Source: a bacterium (lineage in GTDB: Bacteria; Bacillota; Bacilli; Lactobacillales; Streptococcaceae). From it: a stretch of 42,832 nt of DNA. The notes under the pieces are model-generated. The model was not told the DNA's origin. It was given only the letters and a program-made list of their open reading frames with translations, and did not search any database. Where the stretch lies: NCBI GenBank assembly GCA_905221235.1, contig CAJNCJ010000014.1:1-42832 (forward strand). Reading direction: 5' to 3'. Below are positions 3,093 to 24,608 of this stretch, piece after piece (the first letter of the stretch is position 1; the number at the start of each line of letters is the position of its first letter). Made by a program: the position numbers and the translations under genes.

Positions 3093-3121
3093 TTTTAGTC
3101 TCCTTTTCCGAATATTTTCCC

Positions 3122-11951: not shown

Positions 11952-14243
11952 ATGAACGCATTATTAAATGGAATGAATGACCGTCAGGCTGAGGCGGTGC
12001 AAACGACAGAAGGTCCCTTGTTAATCATGGCGGGGGCTGGTTCTGGAAAGACCCGTGTTTTAACCCACCGTATTGCTTATCTGATTGATGAAAAGATGGT
12101 CAATCCATGGAATATCTTGGCCATTACCTTTACCAACAAGGCTGCGCGTGAGATGAAAGAGCGTGCTTATAGCCTCAATCCAGCTACTCAGGATTGTCTG
12201 ATTGCAACCTTCCACTCCATGTGTGTTCGTATTTTGCGTCGCGATGCGGACCATATTGGCTACAACCGTAATTTTACAATTGTCGATCCTGGTGAACAGC
12301 GAACGCTCATGAAACGGATTCTCAAGCAGTTGAACTTGGATCCTAAAAAATGGAATGAACGAACTATTTTGGGAACCATTTCCAATGCTAAGAATGATCT
12401 GATTGATGATGTAGCTTATGCTGCCCAAGCTGGCGATATGTACACGCAAATCGTGGCCCAGTGTTATACAGCCTATCAGAAAGAGCTTCGTCAGTCGGAG
12501 TCGGTTGACTTTGATGATTTGATTATGCTGACCTTACGTCTCTTTGATCAAAATCCTGATGTCTTGACCTACTACCAGCAGAAGTTTCAGTACATCCATG
12601 TTGATGAGTACCAAGATACCAACCACGCTCAGTACCAATTGGTCAAACTCTTGGCTTCCCGTTTTAAAAATATCTGTGTGGTTGGGGATGCGGACCAGTC
12701 TATCTACGGTTGGCGTGGTGCTGATATGCAGAATATTTTGGACTTTGAAAAGGATTACCCCCAAGCCAAGGTTGTTTTGTTGGAGGAGAATTATCGTTCA
12801 ACAAAAACTATTCTCCAAGCGGCCAACGAGGTCATTAAAAACAACAAAAACCGCCGTCCTAAGAATCTCTGGACCCAAAATGCGGATGGAGAGCAAATCG
12901 TTTACTATCGTGCCAATGATGAGCTAGATGAGGCTGTATTTGTAGCCAGAACTATCGATGAGCTTGGTCGGAGTCAAAACTTCCTTCACAAGGATTTTGC
13001 AGTTCTTTATCGTACTAATGCGCAGTCCCGTACTATTGAGGAAGCCTTGCTCAAGTCAAATATCCCTTATACAATGGTCGGAGGAACCAAGTTCTACAGC
13101 CGTAAGGAAATTCGCGATATTATCGCTTACCTCAACCTCATTGCTAATTTGAGTGACAATATCAGCTTTGAGCGTATTATCAACGAACCGAAACGTGGAA
13201 TTGGCCCAGGTACGGTCGAGAAAATCCGTGACTTTGCGAATATGCAAGATATGTCCATGCTAGATGCTTCTGCAAACATCATGTTGTCTGGTATCAAGGG
13301 TAAGGCAGCTCAGTCTATCTGGGATTTTGCCAATATGATTCTAGATTTACGAGAGCAGCTGGACCACTTAAGCATTACTGAGTTGGTTGAGGCTGTCCTA
13401 GAAAAAACAGGTTACGTTGATATTCTTAATGCCCAAGCAACTCTGGAAAGTAAGGCTCGGGTTGAAAATATCGAAGAGTTCCTTTCTGTGACGAAGAACT
13501 TTGATGACACCTCTGATGTGTCAGAAGAGGAAACTGGTCTGGACAAACTGAGTCGTTTCTTAAATGACTTGGCCTTGATTGCCGACACAGATTCAGGTAG
13601 TCAGGAGACATCAGAAGTGACCTTGATGACCCTGCATGCTGCTAAGGGTCTTGAGTTTCCAGTTGTATTTTTGATTGGTATGGAAGAAAATGTCTTTCCG
13701 CTTAGCCGTGCGGCTGAAGATCAAGATGAATTAGAAGAAGAACGCCGTTTGGCCTATGTAGGAATTACGCGTGCAGAGAAAATTCTCTATCTGACAAATG
13801 CCAATTCGCGCCTGCTTTTTGGTCGTACCAACTACAACCGTCCGACTCGTTTTATTAACGAAATCAGTTCAGACTTGCTTGAGTATCAAGGTCTGGCTCG
13901 TCCAGCAAATACAAGCTTTAAAGCATCATATAGTAGTGGTGGCCTTGCCTTCGGTCAAGGTATGAGTTTGGCTCAAGCTCTTCAAGAACGGAAACGCAAT
14001 GCTGCACCAAAATCTATCCAGTCAAGCGGTCTCCCATTTGGTCAATTTACAGCTGGAGCAAAATCAGCGTCTAGTGAAGCAAATTGGTCTATTGGTGACA
14101 TTGCTCTCCACAAAAAATGGGGAGAGGGAACTGTTCTGGAAGTTTCAGGTAGCGGTGCAACTCAGGAATTGAAAATCAATTTCCCAGAAGTAGGTTTGAA
14201 AAAACTTTTAGCCAGTGTGGCTCCAATTGAGAAAAAAATCTAA
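11952..14243 (+). CDS. pcrA: ATP-dependent DNA helicase PcrA (UvrD family)
   Basis: This 763-residue superfamily 1A 3'-5' helicase acts in rolling-circle replication, repair and removal of RecA filaments. Walker A GAGSGKT is at 28-34. Motif II VDEYQDT, motif [13 protein letters not shown], motif [12 protein letters not shown] and motif [13 protein letters not shown] are all present. The C-terminal end (about 695-763, [19 protein letters not shown]) is the Tudor-like domain that contacts RNA polymerase. The SD aagga is close to ATG. Its terminator overlaps the radC control region. Confidence 0.96.
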
Positions 14244-14249
14244 TTTTCC

Positions 14250-14285
14250 ATCCTTCTCACGAATAATAAAGTGAGGAGGATTTTT
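14250..14285 (+). terminator. pcrA terminator whose 3' arm contains the radC ribosome binding site
   Basis: atccttctcac (14250-14260) pairs with gtgaggaggat (14271-14281) with one T-G pair. The ten-base loop is gaataataaa and five Ts follow to 14285. The radC SD gaggagg is in the right arm. Confidence 0.75.
14258..14265 (+). promoter_or_regulatory. Competence combox (ComX promoter) of radC
   Basis: CACGAATA differs from the streptococcal combox TACGAATA in one base and has a T-rich stretch about ten bases upstream. radC is a late competence gene in pneumococcus. A start 5-7 bases downstream would give RNA beginning near 14271, just ahead of the SD. Confidence 0.6.
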
Positions 14286-14966
14286 ATGTATAGTATTTCA
14301 TTCCAAGAAGATTCACTATTACCAAGAGAAAGGCTTGCAAAAGAAGGAGTTGAAGCGCTCAGTAATCAAGAGTTGCTAGCTATTTTACTCAGGACAGGAA
14401 CACGGCAAGCCAGTGTTTTTGAAATTGCCCAGAAAGTTTTGAACAACCTTTCAAGCCTAACGGATTTGAAAAAAATGACCCTGCAGGAATTGCAGAGTCT
14501 GTCTGGTATCGGGCGCGTTAAGGCCATAGAATTACAAGCCATGATTGAACTGGGGCATCGTATTCATAAACACGAAACCCTTGAGATGGAAAGTATTCTC
14601 AGTAGCCAAAAGTTGGCCAAGAAGATGCAGCAGGAATTGGGGGATAAAAAACAAGAGCACCTGGTGGCGCTCTATCTCAATACTCAAAATCAAATCATCC
14701 ATCAACAGACCATTTTTATCGGCTCAGCTACTCGTAGTATCGCAGAACCACGAGAGATTCTTCACTATGCTATCAAGCATATGGCGACTTCACTCATCTT
14801 GGTCCACAATCATCCTTCAGGAGCGGTAGCCCCTAGCCGAAATGATAATCAGGTTACAAAACTTGTAAAAGAAGCTTGCGAACTGATGGGAATTGTCCTC
14901 TTGGACCATTTGATTGTCTCTCATTCTAATTACTTTAGTTATCGTGAAAAGACAGATTTAATCTAA
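14286..14966 (+). CDS. radC: RadC-family DNA repair/competence protein (JAB domain)
   Basis: This 226-residue protein has a helix-hairpin-helix region at about 65-85 ([12 protein letters not shown]) and a C-terminal JAB/MPN metalloprotease-like domain. The metal motif HNHPSG with H174, H176 and D187 is intact. The family is induced in competence, but its molecular role is unsettled. I take the ATG at 14286; a GTG at 14271 opens the frame but lies in the SD itself. The gene sits behind the combox and terminator described separately. Its stop overlaps that of the convergent amidotransferase. Confidence 0.9.
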
Positions 14967-15652
14967 AGTTCATTAACGACATAGTCAAAGAGGTTTTTAT
15001 CTTTGGGACGATTTTCAAAAAGAAATTCTGGATGCCATTGGACACCGAGAAAGGCGACATCATCCGTACTCATGACAGCCTCAATGATACCATCTTTAGG
15101 ATCATGAGCTGCAATCTTTAAGTTAGGTGCTAAATCCTTGATGCTCTGGTGGTGGAAGGAGTTGATATGGGAGATTTCTCCATAGATTTCTCGGAGAACG
15201 GTATTTGGTTCTGTCACTAAGCGTTGGGTTGTGTACTCGGCGGAACAATCCTGCCAGTGATCTTCGATATCTTGATACAAAGTTCCACCCATGGCAACGT
15301 TAAAGAGTTGTGTTCCACGGCAGACAGAAAAAATTGGCTTTTTCTGTTTAATAGCTTCCTTGATGAGGGCCAGTTCGAAGATATCTCTTTGAAGGTGGTA
15401 GTCATCGCTATCAATGGTTTTTGGTTCACCATAGAATTTTGGATCAACATTTTGTCCACCTGACAAGATGAGCTTGTCAACCATACTGATATAGTGGCAG
15501 GCCATTTCTTGATCACCAATCGGTAGGATGATGGGAATCCCTCCAGCGTCTTTAACGCCTTCAACAAAGCCTTTTGCTGCGTAGCTCATCATGATGTCAT
15601 CATCTGGATGAGTTTTTTCGTTTCCTGTAATCCCTATAACTGGTTTTTTCAT
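14963..15652 (-). CDS. Class I glutamine amidotransferase-like hydrolase (peptidase C26, PuuD-type)
   Basis: This 229-residue protein has the gamma-glutamyl hydrolase fold. The catalytic triad is visible: C111 in FSVCRGTQ, and H207 with E209 in GVQWHPEF. Such stand-alone domains include gamma-glutamyl-GABA hydrolase (PuuD) and para-aminobenzoate-unrelated hydrolases; the substrate here is unknown. It follows rex by 17 bases and is probably in its operon. The start ATG at 15652 is preceded by gaaagcgaaaatcatttt, which holds no strong SD, so translation may depend on coupling with rex. It converges on radC with a four-base overlap of the two reading frames. Confidence 0.8.
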
Positions 15653-22271: not shown

Positions 22272-23246
22272 ATGGAAGTTTTTGAAAGTCTCAAAGCCAA
22301 CCTTGTTGGTAAAAATGCTCGTATCGTTCTGCCTGAAGGGGAAGAGCCACGTATTCTTCAAGCGACAAAACGCTTGGTAAAAGAAACAGAAGTAATTCCT
22401 GTTTTGCTTGGAAATCCTGAAAAAATTAAAATTTATCTTGAAATTGAAGGAATCATGGATGGTTATGAGGTCATCGACCCTCAAAATTATCCTCAATTTG
22501 AAGAAATGGTCACTGCCTTGCTGGAGCGTCGTAAGGGTAAAATGACTGAAGAAGAAGCGCGCAAGGTTTTGGTTGAAGATGTCAACTACTTTGGTGTTAT
22601 GTTGGTATACTTGGGCTTGGTTGACGGAATGGTATCAGGTGCGATTCACTCAACTGCTTCAACAGTTCGCCCAGCCCTTCAAATTATCAAAACACGTCCA
22701 AATGTAACGCGTACTTCAGGTGCCTTCCTCATGGTTCGTGGTACGGAACGTTATCTATTTGGTGACTGTGCTATCAATATTAATCCAGATGCAGAAGCCT
22801 TAGCTGAAATTGCGATCAACTCAGCAATTACAGCTAAGATGTTTGGAATCGAGCCTAAAATTGCCATGCTAAGCTATTCTACTAAAGGTTCAGGATTTGG
22901 AGAAAGCGTTGATAAGGTTGTTGAAGCAACTAAAATTGCTCACGACTTGCGCCCTGACCTTGAAATCGATGGTGAGTTGCAATTTGATGCGGCCTTTGTT
23001 CCAGAAACTGCAGCTCTGAAAGCTCCTGGAAGTACAGTAGCTGGTCAAGCAAATGTCTTCATCTTCCCAGGTATCGAGGCAGGAAATATCGGCTACAAGA
23101 TGGCCGAACGTCTTGGTGGCTTTGCGGCCGTAGGACCTGTTTTACAAGGTTTGAATAAGCCAGTTAACGACCTTTCTCGTGGATGTAATGCAGATGATGT
23201 TTACAAGTTGACCCTCATCACAGCAGCTCAAGCTGTTCATCAATAA
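22272..23246 (+). CDS. pta: Phosphate acetyltransferase
   Basis: This 324-residue cytoplasmic enzyme interconverts acetyl-CoA and acetyl phosphate. With acetate kinase (not here) it yields ATP from pyruvate-derived acetyl-CoA, important in streptococci that make acetyl phosphate from pyruvate oxidase. It is the short catalytic form without the DRTGG regulatory extension. The motifs SGAIHSTASTVRPALQI and the C-terminal NKPVNDLSRGC are typical. The SD aaaggag precedes ATG. It ends at a two-way terminator facing pepT. Confidence 0.96.
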   Translation: MEVFESLKANLVGKNARIVLPEGEEPRILQATKRLVKETEVIPVLLGNPEKIKIYLEIEGIMDGYEVIDPQNYPQFEEMVTALLERRKGKMTEEEARKVLVEDVNYFGVMLVYLGLVDGMVSGAIHSTASTVRPALQIIKTRPNVTRTSGAFLMVRGTERYLFGDCAININPDAEALAEIAINSAITAKMFGIEPKIAMLSYSTKGSGFGESVDKVVEATKIAHDLRPDLEIDGELQFDAAFVPETAALKAPGSTVAGQANVFIFPGIEAGNIGYKMAERLGGFAAVGPVLQGLNKPVNDLSRGCNADDVYKLTLITAAQAVHQ

Positions 23247-23283
23247 AGAGAAGTGCTACTAAATAATTCGTATTTATAATCAA

Positions 23284-23330
23284 AAAACGCATAGTATCAG
23301 TACAGAAACCTTGATACTATGCGTTTTATT
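23284..23330. terminator. Bidirectional terminator between pta and pepT
   Basis: aaaacgcatagtatca (23284-23299) pairs perfectly with tgatactatgcgtttt (23312-23327), a 16-bp stem. A T run follows on both strands. Confidence 0.9.
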
Positions 23331-23384: not shown

Positions 23385-24608
23385 TTAGTCTTTATAAGCT
23401 ACGATACCAATGATGGTATCAACTGCACGTTCCATAGTCTGAAGGCTGACGTATTCAAAACGTCCATGCATATTTTCTCCTCCCGCAAAGATATTAGGGG
23501 TCGGGATTCCCATAAAGGAAATCTTAGAGCCGTCTGTCCCGCCGCGAATTGGTTCAATAATAGGCGTGATACCTAAATCTTCCATAACGGCCTTAGCAAT
23601 GGCAATTGGAGTCATATCTTTTTCAATGACTTCTTTCATATTGTAGTACTGATCTGTTAAGTTTAGGGTGACACGGTCGCTACCAAGTTCTTGATTCATC
23701 TTATTAGCGATAGACTGCATAGCTGCTTTACGCGCTTCAAAGGCATCTTTTTCAAAATCGCGAATGATGTAGCTTGCACGCGCCTCCTCAACGCTTCCAG
23801 TCACATCCATAAGATGATAGAAACCTTGGTAACCTTCTGTTAACTCAGGCCGGTCATTTTCTGGAAGTTGATTGTGAAAATCAATTGCTAGCTGAAGTGC
23901 GTTGACCATCTGACCTTTGGCAGTACCAGGGTGGACATTTCGTCCTTGGAAATGCAATTCAGCTCCAGCTGCTGAGAAGGTCTCGTACTGAAGCTCACCT
24001 AATGGACCACCATCAACTGTGTAGGCAAAGTCAACATCAAAATCATCTGCATCAAATTTATTAGCACCAACACCGATTTCTTCATCTGGACCAAAACCAA
24101 CACGAATCTCACAGTGTTTGATTTCAGGGTGAGCAGTCAGATATTCAATGGCTGTCATAATCTCAGCAATACCAGACTTATCATCGGCTCCTAGCAAGGT
24201 TGTTCCGTCGGTTGTGATGAGCGTTTGTCCTGGATATTTTTCAAGACTCTTAAAGTCAGCTGGATCGAGTTTAAAACCAGAATTCCCTAGTTCAATTACT
24301 CCCCCATCATAGTTTTCAATCACCTGCGGATCAACACCTTCGGCATTAAAATCAGCAGTATCCATGTGGGAGATGAAGCCAATTTTACGTGTTAAAGATG
24401 GATCATTGGCTGGCAAGGTCCCAATCGCAAAACCATTTGGAAGGTAGTAGACATTTTGCAGACCAACACGTTTCATTTCTGGGATAAGGATATTGGTTGC
24501 GAAATCAACCTGACTCTGTGTACTTGGAGTAGTAGTTGAGTGTTCATCAGAGCGCGTGTTGACCTTAACGTAGGTTAAAAAGCGGTCCAAGAGATTTGGA
24601 TAAGTCAT
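23385..24608 (-). CDS. pepT: Peptidase T (tripeptide aminopeptidase)
   Basis: This 407-residue M20B metallopeptidase removes N-terminal residues from tripeptides. Zn ligands and catalytic residues are visible: H81 and D83 in HMDTADF, D142 in GADDKSG and the E176-E177 pair in DEEIGVG. The full length covers the catalytic domain and the inserted dimerisation domain. It feeds amino acids from peptides in this auxotrophic genus. The SD aaaggag precedes the ATG. It is divergent from hemH with a palindrome between the two promoters. Confidence 0.95.

Follow-up and report, generated by a model that had tools for sequence, protein, structure and literature searches.

The stretch of DNA analysed, referred to below as the window, comprises 42,832 nt of contig CAJNCJ010000014.1 (assembly GCA_905221235.1, Streptococcaceae). 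On its plus strand lies an ORF at 11952..14243 that matched the Pfam families UvrD-helicase, UvrD_C and PcrA_UvrD_tudor and was identified as pcrA (UvrD/PcrA helicase), followed by the radC CDS at 14286..14966, which begins with the ATG at 14286 and matched Pfam RadC and UPF0758_N. Among the proteins used for the RadC tree described below, the nearest to its product came from an S. pneumoniae genome, at 99% identity, which places the window in the Mitis group. At its 3' end radC overlaps a convergent minus-strand ORF (14963-15652) by 4 bases (14963-14966), so that there is no space for a terminator between the two genes.

The plus-strand sequence between pcrA and radC contains a hairpin, located from the sequence and from predicted folds, with left arm ATCCTTCTCAC at 14250..14260, a 10-nt loop GAATAATAAA at 14261..14270 and right arm GTGAGGAGGAT at 14271..14281; the stem has 11 pairs, one of them G-U. 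The Shine-Dalgarno sequence (SD) of radC, AGGAGG at 14274..14279, is inside the right arm, and a TTTTT run at the end of the stem (14281..14285) doubles as the spacer between SD and ATG. A first-pass annotation of the window had described hairpin, T run, combox and radC SD as overlaid in one place, and this was confirmed from the sequence: a single block of 36 bases combines the stem, the T run, the ComX box and the SD. The region 14230-14330 folded at -20.7 kcal/mol (z -2.59), with 1 of 200 shuffles equally good. At -16.4 kcal/mol, with five Ts and a position 6 nt 3' of the pcrA stop, the hairpin has the sequence features of an intrinsic terminator, of which a loop of 10 and a T run of 5 are not ideal examples. 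Motif-based annotation handles such signals singly, and a simple terminator scanner with the usual loop limit (3-8) did not list this hairpin, whose loop is 10 nt.

The combox, CACGAATA, is located at 14258..14265 on the plus strand and is the box published for S. mitis radC, given there as TTTTT-9-cACGAATA-20-ATG (PMC6001120). It had been assigned to the loop in the first-pass annotation, which is correct for GAATA, while CAC is within the left arm. The extended ComX (sigma-X) promoter motif containing it (14244..14272, plus strand) agreed with the published consensus (PMC6560143) at 27 of 29 positions, the top score in a scan of the window for this motif; both mismatches are T-to-C, and one of them, C14258, pairs with G14273. 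In the part of Slager et al. (2019; PMC6560143) used here, the ComX motif ends immediately before the start site. By this published spacing the predicted ComX start (+1) is the G at 14273, within the right arm, and the left arm would accordingly be absent from ComX-started RNA. The start had earlier been put near 14271, after the left arm; its placement 3' of that arm stands, and the published motif predicts 14273 instead. The predicted ComX leader is 13 nt long, GAGGAGGATTTTT, and starts at the SD. For D39V, Table 3 of PMC6560143 gives 3 TPM for radC before induction and a log2 fold change of 9.8 at both 3 and 10 min of competence. Strong induction of radC was reported in two S. mitis strains (table values 167.3 and 297.6; PMC6001120), and PMC5069739 counts radC among the core SigX genes.

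ComX-like motifs were also seen elsewhere. On the minus strand at 23258-23286, one matched 26 of 29 positions; its core, CGAATT, is also that of the S. australis radC box. It lies on the T-tract side of a bidirectional hairpin (23289-23322). On one side is the minus-strand gene 23385-24608 (pepT-like by eye), on the other the plus-strand gene 22272-23246 (pta-like by eye) comes to its 3' end, and the motif, possibly an orphan promoter like tyg, would give an antisense RNA into the latter. On the plus strand at 3093-3121, a full combox core within a motif of 25/29 positions overlaps a minus-strand gene's ribosome site; the first 22 bases of this motif are also found in genomes G308 and G033, and the combox there is probably a by-product of the conserved SD. 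The first of these genomes, S. pneumoniae 19F, has ten loci (L148, L151, L157, L160, L258-L261, L263 and L264) with ORFs starting M[TI][VL]RHPGISPTNDLVAKKIF[SR]NPEI located 67-68 nt behind a combox, and a TGnTATAAT-like sequence is also present.

The two RNAs expected at the radC site were folded separately. In a 75-nt read-through RNA every SD base was paired with a predicted probability of at least 0.998, and opening the SD was predicted to cost 14.5 kcal/mol; the folding thus bears out the earlier proposal that read-through RNA would fold the SD into the stem. For the ComX-started RNA the predicted cost of opening was 1.8 kcal/mol, with SD and start codon in a weak predicted fold with the first part of the coding region (-4.2 kcal/mol). 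The companion proposal, that combox-started RNA would leave the SD free, is upheld by this low cost and needs the qualification that some SD bases are predicted to be weakly paired. By these predictions the locus has both features of the phage T4 gene e type, namely an SD paired in the upstream-started RNA and a 5' arm missing from the promoter-specific RNA.

Upstream regions of radC were compared in a non-random sample consisting of the 80 nearest loci, the best 30 loci of 59 genomes and hand-picked pattern matches, the hand-picked places coming from among the matches listed; shares among these upstreams are not species frequencies. The 202 loci yielded 113 distinct radC upstreams, which in the terminator count include a later-added variant (L304), and L098, with no combox in range, was omitted from the set of 112 used for shuffling. 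Upstreams were classed as strong if the hairpin was -12 kcal/mol or better and the p value against dinucleotide-shuffled left arms was 0.05 or below. In the swap control, the right arm was paired with left arms taken from other genes or species and aligned at the combox, with the radC class lacking the overlay serving as the negative control.

The window hairpin (row L003, which represents 25 loci including the window) exceeded its shuffled left arms at p 0.020, a modest value, given the abundance of pyrimidines in ComX promoters and of purines in SDs. Comparison across sequences gives stronger evidence for the pairing than this value does. The strong class held 40 of the 112 upstreams, including L093, L180 and L186, which are not counted as main overlay versions, and all five scored SD bases were paired in 39 of the 40. 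When arms were swapped, 10 of 11 distinct strong cases had their own left arm ranked within the top 5%, compared with 1 of 55 remaining radC cases (median rank 0.59); in a smaller version of the control, 9 of 9 overlay rows outdid all the foreign arms they were given, 18 or 20 per row. Compensatory changes that preserve a pair were found at 8 positions among 12 representatives, each in its own predicted fold and aligned at the SD. Mitis-group variants with a weaker stem reached -10.0 (L065), -12.8 (L064) and -13.9 kcal/mol (L042).

Conservation of the left arm, proposed in the first-pass annotation as a check, was found: the exact core is present in 94 of 284 genus genomes, in one copy each. 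Within a single clade such conservation is not evidence for pairing, because the left arm is also promoter sequence; across streptococci, the RadC tree, the compensatory changes and the swap control together indicate that the pairing has been conserved and has re-evolved. A repeat-borne element was excluded as the source of the block, the exact core being single-copy in each of those 94 genomes. In the S. anginosus group a hairpin beside a separate terminator (L093) had -14.0 kcal/mol, a shuffle p of 0.007 and a foreign-arm rank of 0.038, and other rows of the group gave p 0.18 and rank 0.045 (L127), p 0.10 (L114) and p 0.18 (L225); L093 and L127 point to a separate terminator plus some specific SD pairing. 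In the MYDISF-beginning clade, shuffle p was ~0.03 for L180 and L186, and foreign-arm ranks were 0.22 (L186) and 0.29 (L018).

An overlay hairpin with a T tail was present in 44 of the 113 distinct radC upstreams, in several unrelated sequence versions. Strong versions unrelated in sequence were those of pneumoniae/mitis/oralis/infantis, of S. australis and relatives (L107, L108, L254), of L286/L287/L289, of L288/L304, of L290 and of L113. A RadC tree was built from 86 proteins, after exclusion of 21 upstreams without full-length RadC and 6 rows repeating a protein already used. On this tree the overlay label required 4 changes, at least 3 of them forced by well-supported branches, against an average of 27.8 changes when the labels were shuffled. 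The tree itself does not separate gain from loss, and the unrelated sequences of the overlays favour gains. Judged by these comparative tests, the radC overlay is real, recurrent and selected.

Separate terminators were sought over 160 nt with a finder whose stem threshold was -6 kcal/mol, which lets in some weak 'separate' hits. By this measure 39 of the 113 upstreams had the overlay only and 54 a separate terminator only, with 5 having both and 15 neither; the alternation was significant (Fisher p 1e-12) without correction for kinship. In 3 independent pairs the separate-terminator trait changed opposite to the overlay in 1.7 on average and never in the same direction, a comparison below the reach of significance because there were too few switches. 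A T run of at least 4 between SD and ATG was present in 38 of 40 strong and in 13 of 72 other radC upstreams. A co-directional ORF ended 19-63 nt upstream in 38 of 39 overlays, the 19-nt distance belonging to L047, where pcrA has a shifted end; in the exception, L082, no intact ORF was seen upstream of the overlay.

The ORFs upstream of overlays encoded PcrA, a Cys/Met PLP enzyme, an AI-2E transporter, a family-8 glycosyltransferase and a product of 92 aa without a Pfam match. Because the block stays at radC while these five kinds of upstream gene vary, it belongs to radC and not to pcrA. The earlier designation as the pcrA terminator is accurate for the pneumoniae/mitis/oralis clade only, other genes lying upstream in S. 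infantis relatives and other species. An element bound to pcrA was excluded by the S. infantis relatives, in which pcrA lies at another place and the block is still at radC. The relocated pcrA was followed by a terminator-like hairpin, judged by eye, in two S. infantis-type loci (L269, L270); in L268 (S. peroris type) no such hairpin was present within 110 nt after pcrA.

Pneumococcus has been reported to be without Rho (PMC6212727), which would leave intrinsic hairpins as its means of insulation. From the comparison of upstream sequences, termination or insulation is the best-supported role of the radC overlay, and termination accounts for the overlay pattern at least as well as competence-dependent translation of radC. 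Among the 54 upstreams with a separate terminator only, the stem ended within 14 nt of the combox core in 21 and within 7 nt in 13 (examples of stems near the combox are L095, L207, L208, L213, L222, L228, L292, L294, L298 and others), and with a stem end this close the T tract probably also serves as the T-rich ComX element. Two economical solutions seem to exist among streptococci, in which either the tail of the terminator serves as promoter or its stem serves as promoter plus SD.

Only 20 nt separate the combox from the ATG, and a terminator placed in this gap could not form its right arm without the SD; radC alone therefore cannot separate hiding from termination, and hiding may be a by-product. 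The ComX gene ssbB has an equally short leader, and 42 of its distinct upstreams were analysed (43 rows minus L203, a misfiled radC; related species were kept separate). Thirteen of these paired better than shuffles at p 0.05, and 6 of the 42 (L192, L371, L200, L368, L353, L344) had strong SD-hiding hairpins across the combox, none of the 6 with a T run. Ranked against foreign arms, the own left arm fell in the top 5% for 9 of the 42 upstreams (binomial p 2e-4, KS p 9e-5, kinship uncorrected). With the same finder, a separate terminator was absent from 5 of 6 strong and 14 of 36 other ssbB upstreams (Fisher p 0.075). For ssbB of some species these comparisons point to hiding without termination, and are no more than suggestive; the Mitis-group ssbB (L374) was not strongly paired (-7.6 kcal/mol, p 0.62).

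The comEA hairpin of -12.0 kcal/mol was insignificant against shuffles (p 0.14). Places with a combox and a short leader were also scored in five genomes, using 27 of the 30 places listed. Strong pairing (-12 kcal/mol, p ≤0.05) was found at 3 of 4 radC places against 0 of 23 others, some of the 23 probably not being real ComX promoters. A rule for all ComX genes was excluded by the insignificant comEA pairing and by these 23 places. We tentatively put forward, as a proposition somewhat more likely to be wrong than right, that in the ComX regulon translation is recurrently shielded by the upstream strand of the promoter itself, and that this shielding is under selection. If it is true, genes with leaders of ~13 nt would keep the untranscribed promoter strand complementary to the SD, so that only ComX-started RNA is translatable; shielding would have been fused repeatedly with a terminator at radC and would be terminator-free at ssbB, and one sigma factor would gate late competence proteins twice, at transcription and, via the start site, at translation.

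We consider it probable that the radC block is a composite insulator that combines a terminator, hiding of the SD in leak-through RNA and a bypass by ComX. Polymerase arriving from the upstream gene would make the whole hairpin and halt at the T run, as at an intrinsic terminator. RNA that leaks through would refold the hairpin, hold the radC SD in the 11-pair stem and should stay untranslated. In competence, ComX polymerase would bind the T-rich stretch and the combox in the left arm and loop and start at 14273, giving an RNA that begins GAGGAGGAUUUUU-AUG, forms no hairpin, meets no terminator and has an accessible SD. The first and last of these steps are best supported, by sequence comparison and by the published motif and expression data, and a terminator with a ComX bypass is judged very probable. 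Given the short leader, the intermediate step follows physically from termination at the hairpin; that it brings a benefit apart from termination is our inference: as modelled, SD hiding would be a plausible second lock, and the chances that hiding by itself lowers RadC made from leak-through RNA are about even.

It is this intermediate step alone that is disputed if the hairpin merely ends the upstream transcript and the SD sits in its stem for want of space, hiding being unselected; the probabilities of that simpler account and of the composite insulator consequently overlap, and we give the simpler account a little less than an even chance. The near-exclusive alternation of overlays with separate terminators, the T run and the short gap to the upstream gene are all as it predicts, and non-strong radC upstreams pair no better than with foreign arms (1/55, median rank 0.59). 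The near absence of radC RNA before induction, as tabulated in PMC6560143, fits it too and could come from the terminator alone, in which case SD hiding would have no job to do. It is opposed by ssbB, where own arms were among the best 5% in 9 of 42 upstreams (p 2e-4) and a T run was present in 0 of the 6 strong hairpins.

Less again is to be said for chance complementarity, by which some pairing is always to be expected between a T/C-rich ComX promoter and a nearby purine-rich SD. In the Mitis versions even shuffled left arms average some -7 to -10 kcal/mol, and the comEA hairpin shows that -12.0 kcal/mol can be reached at p 0.14; against this stand the compensatory changes, the repeated origin with a T run, the contrast of 3/4 radC places with 0/23 others, and above all the swap control, by which this explanation is already largely refuted, and it is considered highly improbable. 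The least probable reading is that the pcrA-radC transcript carries a regulatory attenuator or ligand-sensing leader of radC, whether a riboswitch or an RNA bound by a protein; the combox would then provide a second promoter. A terminator with the SD in its stem does resemble an attenuator, but there was no Rfam match, an Rfam 15 scan of 13800-15100 returning a single chance lncRNA hit (E 0.58, far below the gathering score), and the several sequence versions share only geometry and combox.

As a composite insulator, the block would be a compact and testable design for silencing a gene beside an active neighbour in a bacterium lacking Rho: a single stretch of 36 bases would act as terminator, as alternative-sigma promoter or as ribosome site, depending on where transcription starts. 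Because the block arose repeatedly at radC, selection on the arrangement can be tested directly. The repeated origin also suggests a possible insulation of competence genes, which must be off until needed, at both the RNA and the protein level. No description of the radC overlay was found in the passages of freely accessible papers that were searched, PMC5167698 among them; a terminator or start at the site may well be annotated in subscription papers, supplements or PneumoBrowse tracks.

Several known systems share parts of the arrangement. Like intrinsic (Rho-independent) terminators, the radC hairpin has a stable stem with a T run immediately behind it and starts 6 nt past the upstream stop codon; unlike them it has a long loop, a promoter inside and a right arm reused as SD. 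It resembles the late-competence ComX/SigX promoters with short leaders (combox, cin-box), in that its combox, T-rich element and spacing fit the motif, and differs from these promoters, as described in the parts of PMC6560143, PMC5069739 and PMC6001120 used here, in the overlap with a hairpin and terminator. Bacillus attenuators such as the vmlR and rplJL leaders, as far as the accounts used here describe them, likewise can terminate or hide an SD, whereas at radC, which has no known ligand or leader peptide, the position of the transcription start would decide. The closest counterpart is in phage T4, where early read-through RNA of gene e (lysozyme), soc, 49 and I-TevI hides the ribosome site and late-promoter RNA is without the 5' part of the structure; in related phages, T4-type late promoters lie in the region encoding the 5' strand (PMC3014915, in the part used here). 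As at gene e, RNA started upstream of radC is predicted to hide the SD, and a promoter near the ribosome site would yield RNA without the 5' arm. In contrast to gene e, radC is a bacterial chromosomal gene under a competence sigma factor, its hairpin shows features of a terminator, and the arrangement has been built at this one gene from several unrelated sequences. By analogy, the radC case would be a bacterial, competence-sigma version of the T4 gene e principle, fused with a terminator.
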